From Dehalococcoidia bacterium (GTDB lineage: Bacteria; Chloroflexota; Dehalococcoidia; DSTF01; JACRBR01), in the NCBI GenBank assembly GCA_040902535.1, contig JBBDXD010000006.1:1-40496 (forward strand): DNA of 40,496 nt, written 5' to 3'. The notes beneath the pieces were generated by a model. It was not told the origin of the DNA and did not search any database. It was given only the letters and a program-made list of their open reading frames with translations. This document shows, in pieces, positions 31,488-36,315 of the stretch; position 1 is the first letter of the stretch, and the number at the start of each line of letters is the position of its first letter. Position numbers and translations under genes: made by a program.

Positions 31488-33593
31488 ATGGCGAAATATT
31501 GGCTGGGCACGATAGTGGGGATCGCGGTCCTTTCGTTGGCGCTGGGGTTGGTCACGAACGGGCCACGCGCCGGTGCCGAGGTCGACAATACGGTCGCGAT
31601 CAGTTGCCTCTTTCTTGCGGGCCCCATCGACGGTGATGGCGATGATCCCGTCGGGGCGGCCGACGCGAACGCCGCGTGCGATGGTCTCACCGCCGCCGAC
31701 GTCGGGCTTATTGCCGCCGCGGTCGGCGACGCCGACGGCGTGCTCGAACCGGGTGAACTCGCCGCGCTCGACCTCGACGCGAACCAGATCACCGTGCCGG
31801 GAAGTGCCCCCCTCGACAGTATCTACATAATCGCGCTGGTGGATGATGACGAACTCGTCACGTTCGACGCAGATTTCGGCGGGTCGGTCACGATCAACGA
31901 TGATGGCGCGCTGGGCGAAGCCACCCCCGGTGACGACGCTAACGTCGAGACGTGCGAAGGAGACGACGATGCCGACTGCGGGACGGAGATCTTTGGAAAC
32001 GGAGACGGCGTCGTGGTCGCGACGATCAGGGCAGTCACCGCGAGTGATGGGACTAACATCGATGTCGCCGTCACGCAGGAAGGTGTGAGCGAAACGCAGA
32101 CGCTGCTCGTCGTTGGTTCGCCGTTCAGGGTCGATCTCAACCTCGTCGAGACGACGGTATTTTCAGGGTCGTCGACGGAGTGCCGTGACGGGACGCTGGA
32201 TGTGTTCGACGACGCCGCGATCGGCGACGCCGCCTCGACGCTGGCACGCGCGGTGATCGTGGACAACGACGACCGCGCGCTGACACGCATCGTCGCAGAC
32301 TTCAGCTCAGCGGATGCCAACATCGCGATCGTCGGCGATACTAGCGAACTTTCGGTCGATGGCGGCACGCGGGGCATGGGCGCATTCGCGGTGATCTGCG
32401 GCGGCGATGTCGCGGGCGCAACGACGATCACGGCCGATATCGGTGCGGACGATGATTCGTTGCCGATCACGGTCGTCGCGGCAACACCCGGCATCACGCT
32501 TACTGCATCTCCAGCGCAAGTCGAGTGTGACGGCGTCGCGTCGTCGACACTAACTGCCACCGTATTCGACGAGTCCGGGCAGCGCGTCCCGGACGGCACG
32601 AACGTGAACTTCAGCGTGGTGGCGCTCGGCAGCGCCGATCCGGTGAACGCGCTCACCACCGGTGGCGTCGCCGCCAGCATCATCACGCCATTGGCCGGCG
32701 CGAGCGGCGTGACCGTGATCGTGACAGCCGGGGCCGCGCAAGCGCAGATCCGCATCGAGTGCGGCGGTCAGACGGAATTCGGTGCGCCGCGCGCGATTGA
32801 ATTGAAGGCGACGCCGCCGCTGATCACGTGCGACGCAAACCACGCATCGACGATCCGTGTGCGCTTGCGTGATGACAACGATCAGCCCATCGCCGATGGC
32901 ACCTACGTCGAGTTCTCCGTGGAGAATGCCGGCGACAACTACGGCTACCGGTTCTCCCAGGACCAGGCCGTGACATCCGGCGGCGAAGTCACGACCGACG
33001 TCTTCTTCCAGTCCGTCGACCCGCTGCCACCCTCCGCGTTCGACGTGCGTGCTACGTCGGGCATGATCAGCGGGACGATTCGCGTACGGTGCGACGGAGT
33101 GCTGTGTATGTCGCCGCCGCCGCACCCCATGAGTCCACCGTGCGTGCAGCCACCGCCATCCCCGCCCGGCTGCGTCGAAGAGCCAACGTCGCCGCCTGAA
33201 TCGGTGAGTCCGCCCTGCCCGACGGCAACGCCGTTTCCGCCGTCGCCGCCGCCGTGCGAGTGGCCGTTCTCCCCGCCCAACTGTGATCCCGGCGAATTGG
33301 CATCGCCGTCGTCCACGGCAACGCCTGCGGACACCGCCACAGCGAGATCAACGCGCACGAAGCAACCGCCTCGTACGCCACGTGCTACGCGCACACCGAA
33401 GCCGACGAAAACACCGCGGGCCCACGCGTGTGCCGACGTGACGGGCGACGGGGCAGTTTCGAGCGCCGATCTTGTCGCGATCAGCGCGAAGGCCGGGCGG
33501 GGATACGATGCCCGCTACGACATCAACGACGACGGCAAGGTGACATTCCGAGACGTGCTGGCGGCGGCGGCTCAGCTGAAGCGGAGGTGCTAA
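31488..33593 (+). CDS. Large secreted protein with Ig-like domains and a C-terminal dockerin-like domain
   Basis: The 701-residue protein has a signal peptide (GTIVGIAVLSLALGLVTNG), a calcium-loop-rich N terminus (GDGDDPVGAADANA), and Ig-like (invasin/Big_1-type) domains around 330-545. These have strands such as ITLTASPAQVECDGVASSTL and IELKATPPLITCDANHASTI. A Cys/Pro-rich segment (MSPPPHPMSPPCVQPPPSP) and a Thr/Pro-rich linker (RTPRATRTPKPTKTPR) lead to a C-terminal dockerin type I-like domain (VTGDGAVSSADLVAI and INDDGKVTFRDVLAA). The domain suggests attachment to a surface partner. The overlap with the DUF1028 gene's 3' end is four bases (convergent). Related Chloroflexota proteins carry similar linkers, but the exact partner is unknown. 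Confidence 0.75.
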   Translation: MAKYWLGTIVGIAVLSLALGLVTNGPRAGAEVDNTVAISCLFLAGPIDGDGDDPVGAADANAACDGLTAADVGLIAAAVGDADGVLEPGELAALDLDANQITVPGSAPLDSIYIIALVDDDELVTFDADFGGSVTINDDGALGEATPGDDANVETCEGDDDADCGTEIFGNGDGVVVATIRAVTASDGTNIDVAVTQEGVSETQTLLVVGSPFRVDLNLVETTVFSGSSTECRDGTLDVFDDAAIGDAASTLARAVIVDNDDRALTRIVADFSSADANIAIVGDTSELSVDGGTRGMGAFAVICGGDVAGATTITADIGADDDSLPITVVAATPGITLTASPAQVECDGVASSTLTATVFDESGQRVPDGTNVNFSVVALGSADPVNALTTGGVAASIITPLAGASGVTVIVTAGAAQAQIRIECGGQTEFGAPRAIELKATPPLITCDANHASTIRVRLRDDNDQPIADGTYVEFSVENAGDNYGYRFSQDQAVTSGGEVTTDVFFQSVDPLPPSAFDVRATSGMISGTIRVRCDGVLCMSPPPHPMSPPCVQPPPSPPGCVEEPTSPPESVSPPCPTATPFPPSPPPCEWPFSPPNCDPGELASPSSTATPADTATARSTRTKQPPRTPRATRTPKPTKTPRAHACADVTGDGAVSSADLVAISAKAGRGYDARYDINDDGKVTFRDVLAAAAQLKRRC

Positions 33594-34255
33594 TGATCGG
33601 CTGAGGGCTGTTCGCGGCCCATGCGCAGCATCAGGTCGAAGATGCGGCGCAACTCGGGCACCGGGTCGGCGTGCTCGTCGACGCGGATGTCGAGCCGATA
33701 TTCGCGCGGGTCGAAGTTGGGAGAGCCGCCGCGCGCGATCACCTGCGGCGTGACGACGAGCGCGGCTGATTGGCGGCCGCGCTTGTCACCGCCCGCCGCT
33801 TGACCCGCTTCGAGCGCCAGCACGAGGCGGATGCCCAGCCACTTGCCCGCGCTCGCCTCGAAGGCGTTGGCCATCGCCTCGACGACTTGCGCGCCGTCGA
33901 GCATGTTGCCCTGCGCCGAGTAGTCCTGCCCCTCGCGGCTGCCGAACCAATCGACGCAGTCCTTGCCGCTGTAGGCGAACGTGCGTCCCTGCGCGTCGAT
34001 GCCGGCGACCTGCCGCACGTCGCGGCCGCCGTCTTCGGCGAGGAGCGCTTCGAGCGCGGCGCGCGGGCTGATGCCGTGCTCGAGTAGCCGCAGCCCCTGC
34101 GTGCCGAGATCGACGTTCGTGTTCGACTGCGTCGCGATGGCGCCGACGCCCGACTTCGCGTGCGGCACGAGCGCACCGACGCACGGCACAGCGGTACACA
34201 CCGCAACGCCAAACGAGGCGCTGTTCGGATCTCGCGCGATGATGCTGAATGTCAT
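33590..34255 (-). CDS. DUF1028 family protein (Ntn-hydrolase-like)
   Basis: The 221-residue protein matches DUF1028 throughout: MTFSIIARDPNSASFGVAV, VPHAKSGVGAIATQSNTN, LRLLEHGISPRAALEALLAED and EGQDYSAQGNMLDGAQVVEA. The family is predicted to have an Ntn-hydrolase fold and to act on small amides or peptides, but no substrate is established. The start at 34255 has a GAGGAGG ribosome site four bases upstream. It is the last gene of the minus-strand cassette with a DUF35 protein and a thiolase-like protein. It converges on the large secreted protein, sharing four bases. Confidence 0.9.
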   Translation of the reverse strand: MTFSIIARDPNSASFGVAVCTAVPCVGALVPHAKSGVGAIATQSNTNVDLGTQGLRLLEHGISPRAALEALLAEDGGRDVRQVAGIDAQGRTFAYSGKDCVDWFGSREGQDYSAQGNMLDGAQVVEAMANAFEASAGKWLGIRLVLALEAGQAAGGDKRGRQSAALVVTPQVIARGGSPNFDPREYRLDIRVDEHADPVPELRRIFDLMLRMGREQPSADH

Positions 34256-34267
34256 GGACCTCCTCAG

Positions 34268-34300
34268 TCGTAAGTTGTCAGTTTAAGTTCTAAGTTGTAG
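34268..34300. repeat. AAGTT-type repeat A
   Basis: Contains AAGTTGTCAGTTT and TAAGTTCTAAGTTGTAG. It lies between DUF1028 and the small gene and supplies the stop codon and the last codons of that gene. Confidence 0.6.
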
Positions 34301-34544
34301 GCTCGCGGCTCATTCGATCGACTACGCCGAGCACTGACTCGACGAGCACGCGGTCGCCCGGGTGTGGGTCTTCGTAGATCATGTCAAACGACAGGCGCGC
34401 CTCACGCGGCGTTTCGGATGATGCGTCGAGGCGATACAGCACGGCGTAGTAGCGCGTGCCGTGCAGTTCGTACGGCCGCACGTCGACCACCTCGCCGGCC
34501 TGTGGCTTCGGACGCTCGCCGCCGCGGACCCATTTTGAAGTCAT
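34290..34544 (-). CDS. Small hypothetical protein, 84 aa
   Basis: The protein MTSKWVRGGERPKPQAGEVVD has predicted beta strands (VVDVRPYELHGTRYYAVLYRL, SFDMIYEDPHPGDRVLVES), perhaps a small barrel. I do not recognise it. It lies between the DUF35 and DUF1028 genes in the same direction. Its start codon and its stop codon both lie within or next to AAGTT-type repeats, so its true end may have been set by repeat insertion. A role in the thiolase/DUF35 pathway is possible by position only. Confidence 0.55.
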   Translation of the reverse strand: MTSKWVRGGERPKPQAGEVVDVRPYELHGTRYYAVLYRLDASSETPREARLSFDMIYEDPHPGDRVLVESVLGVVDRMSREPTT

Positions 34545-34592
34545 ACGTTGTCAGTCTTCAGTTGTAAGTTCCAAAGTCCGAAGTTCAAGGTT
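34545..34592. repeat. AAGTT-type repeat B
   Basis: Contains GTTGTCAGTCTTCAGTTGTAAGTT and CGAAGTTCAAGGTTCGG. It directly precedes the start of the 34290-34544 gene. Confidence 0.6.
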
Positions 34593-34647
34593 CGGCGTTC
34601 TACTAGCTCGGTTAGCTCTTCTCTGGACGGACTGAAATCATCAACGC

Positions 34648-34674
34648 ACTTACAACTGATAACTTACGACTTAT
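34648..34674. repeat. AAGTT-type repeat C (inverted)
   Basis: In reverse complement this reads GATAAGTCGTAAGTTATCAG and TTGTAAG. It provides the last codons (SDKS) and TAA stop of the DUF35 gene. Confidence 0.6.
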
Positions 34675-35077
34675 CACTCATGAAGCGCACGAGCGTCGTA
34701 TCGTCCGACACGTCGTCGAAGTAGGCGACGAGCGGCATGTCGACGCGGATCTCGTCGTCGGGCACGCCGACGACGTTCGATACGATGCGCGGGCCTTCTT
34801 CAAGCTCAACGATCGCGTAGTGGTAGGGGCCGTCCTCGCTGAAGCCGGGAAACTTCTGATGCATGACGCCGAACGAGTACAGCGTGCCGCGCCCGCTCGC
34901 CTTCTCCCACGCCGTGTCGGTCGACCAGCAGTCAGGGCAGCGCGGCCGCGACGGCAAGCGCCAGGCGCGGCAGTCCTTGCAGCGCATCAGCATGAGTTCG
35001 TGGCGTCGCGCGCCGTCGTAGAATTCGCGGGACTCTTCGTCCGCCTGCGGGATGGGCCGAGTGTAGGTGTCACTCAC
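34664..35077 (-). CDS. DUF35 OB-fold protein with zinc ribbon
   Basis: The 137-residue protein has an N-terminal rubredoxin-like zinc ribbon with C33, C36, C47, and C50 (RCKDC and RCPDC). An OB-fold follows (GRGTLYSFGVMHQKFPGF, YHYAIVELEEGPRIVSNVVG). DUF35 proteins bind acyl-CoA and partner with thiolase-superfamily enzymes, both in archaeal isoprenoid synthesis and in bacterial steroid degradation. It lies directly downstream of the thiolase-like gene, with 41 bases between. Its GTG start is at 35077. Its last four codons lie in a repeat. Confidence 0.9.
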   Translation of the reverse strand: MSDTYTRPIPQADEESREFYDGARRHELMLMRCKDCRAWRLPSRPRCPDCWSTDTAWEKASGRGTLYSFGVMHQKFPGFSEDGPYHYAIVELEEGPRIVSNVVGVPDDEIRVDMPLVAYFDDVSDDTTLVRFMSDKS

Positions 35078-35118
35078 GCATCACCATCGTCGTGTACTCC
35101 GACGTTCGATTTTCAGCC

Positions 35119-36315
35119 TCACGCATCATGGGGCGACAGGACGATCGTGCTGTGATGATCGAGGATGCCGCCGTTGCCGGTCACGAGCACAACGTCGTGC
35201 TTGTCGACCTGGCGGTCGCCGCCCTGGCCGCGCGCCTGGATGATGCCCTCCGAGAGCGGCGTCATGCCCCACATGTAGTAGGCGCTGAGTTGGCCGCCGC
35301 CGGTGTTCGTCGGCAGGGCGCCGCCCGGCGCGAGCTTGCCGTCGGCGACGAACGGGCCGCCCTCGCTTTTCGCGCAGAAACCGTAATCCTCGAGCGTGAC
35401 GAGCACGGTGTAGGTGTAGCAGTCGTACGCCTGCAGCACGTCCACATCGTCGATCCCTATGCCGGCCATCGCGAAGGCCTTCTCCTTCGACATGGGCGCG
35501 CCCGTCTGTGTCTCGACATCCCATCCTTTGCGACGCATGTCGCCGGGATGCCCCTGTCCCATGCCCCAGATGTACGCCGGCGGCTGCTTCATGTCCTTCG
35601 CCGCGTCCGCGCGCGAGACGATCACCGCCACGCCGCCGTTCGATACGAGGCAACAGTCCAGCAGGTGCAGCGGCTCGGCCACCCATCGCGATGCGTGGTA
35701 GTCCTCGAGCGTCATGGGTTCGCGGTGCTCGGCGATCGGATTCATCGCCGCCCATTGTCGCTCCGCCACGGCGATCGCGCCGAAGTGGTCGTTCGTGGTG
35801 CCGTACATCGCCATGTGGCGGCGCGCGGCGATAGCGTAGTGGGCGTTGATGCCCATGACGCCGAACGCCGGGTAGAGCCCGCCCATGCCGGACGGTCGCG
35901 TCGGGCGGCCCATGCCGGCATACGCGGCGCCACCGCCCTTGTTCGGCTGCAACGGCGCATCGGCGAAGACGCACACGACGTGATTCGCCATGCCGTGGAT
36001 GACGCTCATGGCGGCGTACTGCACCATGACGTTCGCCGTCGCGCCGCCGACGTTCATGCTCGACAGCAGGCGCAGGTTGGTGAGTCCCAGGTAGTTCTGC
36101 AGCCCGACGCCGCCCATGCCGCCGAGCGCACTGACGCCCGGGTTCACGAGCAGGCCGTCGATGTCCTCCTTGCGCAGGCCGGCGTCGGCGACGGCGCGCT
36201 GGATCGCTTCGGCGGCGAAGTGCTGGGCATCGTGGCCGTAGACGCGCCCCATCTCGGAGATGCCCAGCCCGGTGATCGCCGCCCTGGCCTTCAATTCCCG
36301 TCCGGTCGCGTCCAT
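35119..36315 (-). CDS. Thiolase-superfamily protein without the usual Cys/His residues (lipid-transfer/Ltp2-like)
   Basis: The 398-residue protein has the thiolase fold: an N-terminal helix and strand (AITGLGISEMGR), NPGVSAL, a central MNVGGATANVMVQYAAM, and a C-terminal GGGQLSAYYMWGMTPLSEG segment. The nucleophile Cys of thiolases would lie at N88-V89; the GHP histidine is replaced by Y346/Y347; the last Cys loop reads TGNGGILDHH. Canonical thiolysis is therefore unlikely. Ltp2-type aldolases, which cleave steroid side chains with a DUF35 partner, also lost these residues and use tyrosines, and a DUF35 gene lies directly downstream. The start at 36315 has a GAGGAGG site. The aldolase reading is inference. 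Confidence 0.8.
   Translation of the reverse strand: MDATGRELKARAAITGLGISEMGRVYGHDAQHFAAEAIQRAVADAGLRKEDIDGLLVNPGVSALGGMGGVGLQNYLGLTNLRLLSSMNVGGATANVMVQYAAMSVIHGMANHVVCVFADAPLQPNKGGGAAYAGMGRPTRPSGMGGLYPAFGVMGINAHYAIAARRHMAMYGTTNDHFGAIAVAERQWAAMNPIAEHREPMTLEDYHASRWVAEPLHLLDCCLVSNGGVAVIVSRADAAKDMKQPPAYIWGMGQGHPGDMRRKGWDVETQTGAPMSKEKAFAMAGIGIDDVDVLQAYDCYTYTVLVTLEDYGFCAKSEGGPFVADGKLAPGGALPTNTGGGQLSAYYMWGMTPLSEGIIQARGQGGDRQVDKHDVVLVTGNGGILDHHSTIVLSPHDA

Follow-up and report, generated by a model that had tools for sequence, protein, structure and literature searches.

Two adjacent genes of the window, the 40,496-nucleotide stretch of Dehalococcoidia DNA analyzed here, probably encode the subunits of a DUF35-dependent acyl-CoA aldolase built on the thiolase fold, the likely chemistry of which is the retro-aldol cleavage of a β-hydroxyacyl-CoA. 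This assignment builds on the observed fold, residue conservation, gene pairing, and phylogeny of the pair. The initial annotation had already proposed a candidate aldolase at positions 34664-36315, coordinates that are confirmed from the open reading frames (ORFs), and the proposal is well supported by structural matches to the Ltp2 and Sal aldolases, the loss of the thiolase nucleophile, the presence of both tyrosines, and the adjacency of a DUF35 gene.

The ORF for the thiolase-fold protein is separated from the DUF35 ORF by a gap of 41 bp (Table 1). The 398-aa product matches the Pfam family Thiolase_C_1 (5.7e-45), and the 137-aa product of the next gene, correctly identified from the outset as a DUF35 protein, matches zf-ChsH2 and OB_ChsH2_C, representing a zinc ribbon and an OB fold. 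The source genome (3.18 Mb, 96% complete), with Chloroflexota as its nearest relatives, contains no close copy of the 398-aa protein besides itself; its other thiolase-fold paralogs share at most 39% identity, and several of these adjoin a DUF35 gene of their own. The DUF1028 gene said to end the cassette is confirmed by Pfam, but a gene encoding an 84-aa conserved protein, located between the DUF35 and DUF1028 genes, had been overlooked. This 84-aa protein has no Pfam match, and its gene occupies the same position in near relatives (loci L011-L014 and L098). DUF1028 is encoded downstream of the pair in loci L012, L013, and L092-L095 and is absent near the other orthologs; because it adjoins the pair in only a few related lineages, it was dropped as a core component, and a literature search on DUF1028 returned no paper. 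The gaps flanking the 84-aa gene (34260-34298 and 34540-34671) are filled by an AT-rich repeat with a 7-bp period (ACTTACA/ACTGAAA type, e.g., ACTTACAACTGATAACTTACGACT), a 24-mer form of which occurs in 85 copies genome-wide, compared to 0 for a reversed control pattern.

Table 1. Positions in the window of the genes of the cassette and of the residues discussed in the text.
Feature	Position	Strand	Size, start, or basis
Thiolase-fold gene, predicted CoA-thioester aldolase subunit, IpfD-related	35119-36315	(-)	398 aa, ATG start
Stand-alone DUF35 gene, predicted partner subunit, IpfE/ChsH2-DUF35-related	34664-35077	(-)	137 aa, GTG start
Gene for 84-aa conserved protein between the DUF35 and DUF1028 genes	34290-34544	(-)	
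DUF1028 gene, last of the cassette	33590-34255	(-)	221 aa, Pfam 8.2e-72
Gly91 codon, site of the thiolase nucleophilic Cys, invariant	36043-36045	(-)	SCP2 thiolase alignment and orthologs
Tyr297 codon, predicted catalytic base (= TcLtp2 Tyr294, CtSal Tyr302)	35425-35427	(-)	Alignment, conservation, PMC12329534
Cys299 codon, candidate general acid (= CtSal Cys304)	35419-35421	(-)	Alignment, conservation, PMC12329534
Tyr347 codon, candidate general acid (= TcLtp2 Tyr344; CtSal Gln352; thiolase GHP His)	35275-35277	(-)	Alignment, conservation
Zinc-ribbon cysteines C33, C36, C47, and C50 (CxxC-x10-CxxC) of DUF35	34928-34981	(-)	Direct reading and alignment

The three motifs to which the initial annotation drew attention, MNVGGAT, AYYM, and TGNGGILDHH, are all present in the 398-aa protein, where they occupy residues 87-93, 345-348, and 379-388, respectively. 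In an alignment with SCP2 thiolase, the nucleophilic Cys is replaced by Gly91 and the His of the GHP motif by Tyr347, while the HDCF motif of SCP2 thiolase corresponds to Y297-D-C299-Y300, with Cys299 aligned to the Cys of HDCF. The claim that the catalytic residues are lost thus holds for the nucleophile and the GHP His, but not for the acid/base-type Cys, which is retained in the YDCY motif; a Cys and a His are not both placed at the thiolase active site, and the one acid/base Cys is kept in the fashion of Sal. Gly91, Tyr297, Cys299, and Tyr347 are invariant in 88 of 88 distinct orthologs (at least 54% identity), a set that spans Chloroflexota, Actinomycetota, Pseudomonadota, and others. Chance is excluded as the source of this residue pattern because it is invariant throughout these orthologs and a DUF35 ORF is adjacent in most of them.

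The equivalent residues have established roles in two related enzymes. The catalytic residues of TcLtp2 are Tyr294 and Tyr344, the latter replaced by Gln352 in Sal, while the YDCY motif of CtSal holds Tyr302 and Cys304, and the substitutions Y302F and C304A/S/H abolish activity (PMC12329534). At the positions of Tyr297, Cys299, and Tyr347, Ltp2 has Y/H/Y, Sal has Y/C/Q, IpfD has Y/A or P/Y, and the group of the Sphaerobacter thermophilus protein 4u4e has mostly Y/S/H; the window family has Y/C/Y. As read from the alignment, the window protein combines the Tyr and Cys of Sal with the second Tyr of Ltp2. The function implied by automatic annotation, that of an ordinary thiolase or acetyl-CoA acetyltransferase, follows the name of the nearest NCBIfam model (e.g., acetyl-CoA acetyltransferase), which the protein matches below its cut-off; it is barely credible for a protein that reaches the cut-off of no NCBIfam model and whose orthologs all carry Gly for the nucleophilic Cys and Tyr for the GHP His.

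An AlphaFold2 model of the 398-aa protein (45 sequences) has a mean pLDDT of 85 and a pTM of 0.89. Residues 341-350 are weakly modeled (mean pLDDT about 48), so that Tyr347 is placed by sequence alignment and the geometry of its loop is unconfirmed. The best structural matches of the model are the complexes Ltp2-ChsH2(DUF35) (PDB 6ok1, Z 47.2) and Sal-Shy(DUF35) (PDB 9myr, Z 46.6), with which the uncharacterized 4u4e (Z 46.1) is tied within about one unit, compared to a Z of about 32 for classical thiolases; a phmmer comparison with the Ltp2 of 6ok1 gives 2.6e-65.

Ltp2-ChsH2, a C3 steroid side-chain aldolase, shares with the window pair the fold, both catalytic Tyr positions, and a C4 zinc-ribbon DUF35. 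It differs in having YDHF where the window protein has YDCY, in a sequence identity of 36%, in belonging to a different clade, and in a MaoC-fused DUF35, which is a separate protein in the window. Against the NCBIfam Ltp2 model NF005892, the window protein scores 274.7 bits, far under the 469-bit cut-off, whereas TcLtp2 scores 687, and the initial label of an Ltp2-type enzyme does not hold in the strict sense. Sal-Shy, a C5 bile-acid side-chain aldolase, likewise shares the fold and has an identical YDCY motif with the essential Tyr and Cys, but carries Gln in place of Ltp2 Tyr344 in four of four Sal sequences, where the window protein has Tyr347. It also contains a three-residue loop insertion that the window protein lacks, shares 34% identity with it, and falls into a different clade, and its partner Shy has a C3H1 zinc site and a MaoC fusion (PMC12329534), in contrast to the C4 site of the stand-alone window DUF35. 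A role as an Ltp2- or Sal-like steroid side-chain aldolase in sterol or bile-acid breakdown would fit the common fold, the type of partner, and the motif residues held in common with each enzyme; nonetheless, it is very improbable, because all five DUF35 frames in the genome are too short for a MaoC-DUF35 fusion and the protein lies clearly outside the steroid clades. The sterol or isoprenoid substrate put forward at first was dropped, as no such fusion turned up in the genome and no steroid gene was seen beside any ortholog.

The putative thiolase 4u4e of S. thermophilus and the window-genome paralogs L002 and L003 also adopt a thiolase fold without the nucleophilic Cys. They are unlike the window protein in having YDSF or YDAF, in keeping His at the GHP position, and in forming a separate clade; L002 and L003 are paired with DUF35 as well, but with the DUF35 gene upstream.

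In a maximum-likelihood tree, the window family and the IpfD group form one clade (100/99) that excludes Ltp2, Sal, and the 4u4e group; the Ltp2 sequences form a clade of their own (99-100%). The joint clade retains a support of 99 when the active-site columns are left out. IpfD may branch from within the window family, which is either the sister or the parent of IpfD. At E ≤ 1e-135, a sample of 301 genomes of the phylum to which the window belongs yielded orthologs in 12; the ortholog is frequent among members of the same family and order as well as in Actinomadura. The window's branch is a new subfamily of a known enzyme kind, widespread and unstudied.

The nearest studied relative of the window protein, as judged by sequence comparison, is IpfD of ibuprofen catabolism, which tblastn located on the ibuprofen plasmids pIBU218 and pRW412a with 51% identity over 391 residues, i.e., full length. 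IpfD and IpfE, known from Rhizorhabdus wittichii MPO218 (pIBU218) and Sphingopyxis granuli RW412, have been assigned the retro-aldol step that converts dihydroxylated ibuprofenyl-CoA into 4-isobutylcatechol and propionyl-CoA, an assignment that comes from genetics and metabolites and includes an ipfD transposon mutant unable to grow on ibuprofen (PMC9195938). The active-site residues of IpfDE are not named in the literature, according to a recent paper (PMC11347016). On both plasmids, the genes are arranged in the order dioxygenase alpha, dioxygenase beta, IpfD, DUF35 (IpfE), and CoA ligase, and similar dioxygenase-linked operons are found on plasmids of Paraburkholderia, Variovorax, Rhodococcus, Streptomyces, and Nitratireductor.

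In addition to their common clade, the two systems are alike in the order of thiolase and DUF35 genes, the Tyr/Tyr pair, a GMTP loop, and the lack of the nucleophilic Cys. They differ in that IpfD-type enzymes have YDAF or YDPF (YDAF in IpfD), without Cys, where the window protein has YDCY, and in that the ring-dioxygenase alpha/beta and CoA-ligase genes of the ipf operon are absent at the window pair. The zinc-ribbon cysteine set kept by the window DUF35 has also been lost from IpfE (L118, 15195-15593) and from a Paraburkholderia relative (L119, 15183-15557). Given this kinship, and given that the examined members of the IpfD branch adjoin dioxygenase alpha/beta genes, the window pair might be expected to act on an ipso-dioxygenated aryl-acyl-CoA and release a catechol. 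Such an aromatic route is, however, quite unlikely in the window organism, because no match to a ring-hydroxylating dioxygenase alpha or beta subunit (Ring_hydroxyl_A, PF00848; Ring_hydroxyl_B, PF00866) was found in its 96%-complete genome; across 71 ortholog loci with flanks, both subunits are encoded near the pair only at L077, itself a member of the IpfD branch.

The DUF35 protein of the window matches the corresponding subunits of both steroid aldolase structures (9myr_B, 7.9e-23; 6ok1_B, 7e-21). A DUF35 ORF is located no more than about 100 bp downstream of the thiolase-fold gene in most orthologous loci, and DUF35 directly follows the aldolase gene in nearly all loci of Chloroflexota, Actinomycetota, and Pseudomonadota and in one Acidobacteriota metagenome-assembled genome. 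In the close relative G003, the pair is split over different contigs with both genes kept, the DUF35 proteins sharing 76% identity. In Comamonas (C. testosteroni), DUF35 is indispensable for the aldolase activity of Ltp2 (PMC12502768).

The neighborhoods of the orthologs vary between lineages. Mycolicibacterium orthologs adjoin aldehyde dehydrogenases, a double CoA transferase, and an enoyl-CoA hydratase, and orthologs on Rhodococcus plasmids lie near either a P450 with alcohol and aldehyde dehydrogenases or CoA ligases and transferases, surroundings that favor an aldolase. Conversely, the neighbors in Chloroflexota and Actinomadura form no obvious catabolic operon, and no CoA ligase or hydratase is seen next to the pair in the window genome. 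An NMO-type flavoprotein gene follows the pair in 34 of the 71 loci, all of the Actinomadura group (L029-L083). In Actinomadura, the pair also adjoins an ectoine operon; in Tepidiformia, it adjoins arginine-biosynthesis genes. The neighbors in Mycolicibacterium, Rhodococcus, and Actinomadura fit acyl-CoA catabolism without naming a substrate. The use of neighborhoods as a guide to the substrate was dropped, as no single theme runs through all lineages and the proximity to ectoine and arginine genes looks accidental. Two further arrangements were observed. In most of the loci L015-L034 and L078, from Tepidiformia and relatives, the pair lies between a metallo-β-lactamase-fold gene, upstream, and a VOC-like 131-aa gene, downstream. 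In Mycolicibacterium sp. CBMA 247 (L084, 5-10640), two thiolase/DUF35 pairs occur alongside a pair of aldehyde dehydrogenases, a double CoA-transferase III, an enoyl-CoA hydratase, and an SDR, a set that may make up an entire unassigned acyl-CoA pathway.

From homology to these enzymes we infer catalysis by the pair, formation of a complex, and the direction of the reaction. A β-hydroxyacyl-CoA would bind such that its thioester occupies the former thiolase pocket, and Tyr297 would act as the base that takes the proton of the β-hydroxyl, which the backbone around Gly91 would hold. Breakage of the Cα-Cβ bond would then yield an aldehyde or ketone and a CoA enolate, and reprotonation of the enolate by Cys299, Tyr347, or both would release acetyl-CoA or propionyl-CoA. 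The DUF35 subunit would pack on the thiolase subunit and shape the pocket. A literature search found no measured activity for any member of the window's branch, and the retro-aldol role of IpfD itself was assigned indirectly, as described above. As a first and speculative guess, drawn by analogy, the substrate may reasonably be taken to be branched, because Ltp2 and IpfD, which have the second Tyr as well, each cut adjacent to a fully substituted carbon to liberate propionyl-CoA. The aldehyde dehydrogenases encoded near some orthologs, by contrast, suggest that the product is an aldehyde.

The same active site could also serve a condensing or decarboxylating enzyme, catalyzing either a forward aldol or Claisen reaction or the decarboxylation of a malonyl-type CoA ester. 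Thiolase-fold enzymes without the nucleophilic Cys are capable of such reactions, aldol reactions are reversible, and a very slow decarboxylation of malonyl-CoA is known from TbSLP, a protein with a YDCF motif (PMC12329534). Sal, which has the same YDCY as the window protein, shows no malonyl-CoA decarboxylation (PMC12329534), and genes of related clades are found within catabolic clusters; this alternative is considered unlikely.

A broader proposal, which we hold to be evenly poised between true and false, is that the pair would belong to a fourth class of DUF35-dependent CoA aldolases possessing both alternative general acids, the Cys of Sal and the Tyr of Ltp2. This class would have a near-basal place in the branch that gave rise to the enzymes cleaving the ibuprofen side chain, which would have become part of dioxygenase operons and lost the Cys; the natural substrate of the class would be something other than a steroid or an arylpropionate. 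Aldolase is probably the true function of many proteins that carry a thiolase or acetyl-CoA acetyltransferase annotation, and pathway reconstructions in which they are treated as thiolases would therefore be wrong. The window family connects the two steroid aldolases, which are well studied, to IpfD, which is poorly understood, and suggests which active-site residues IpfD may use, the Tyr pair being kept and the Cys lost.
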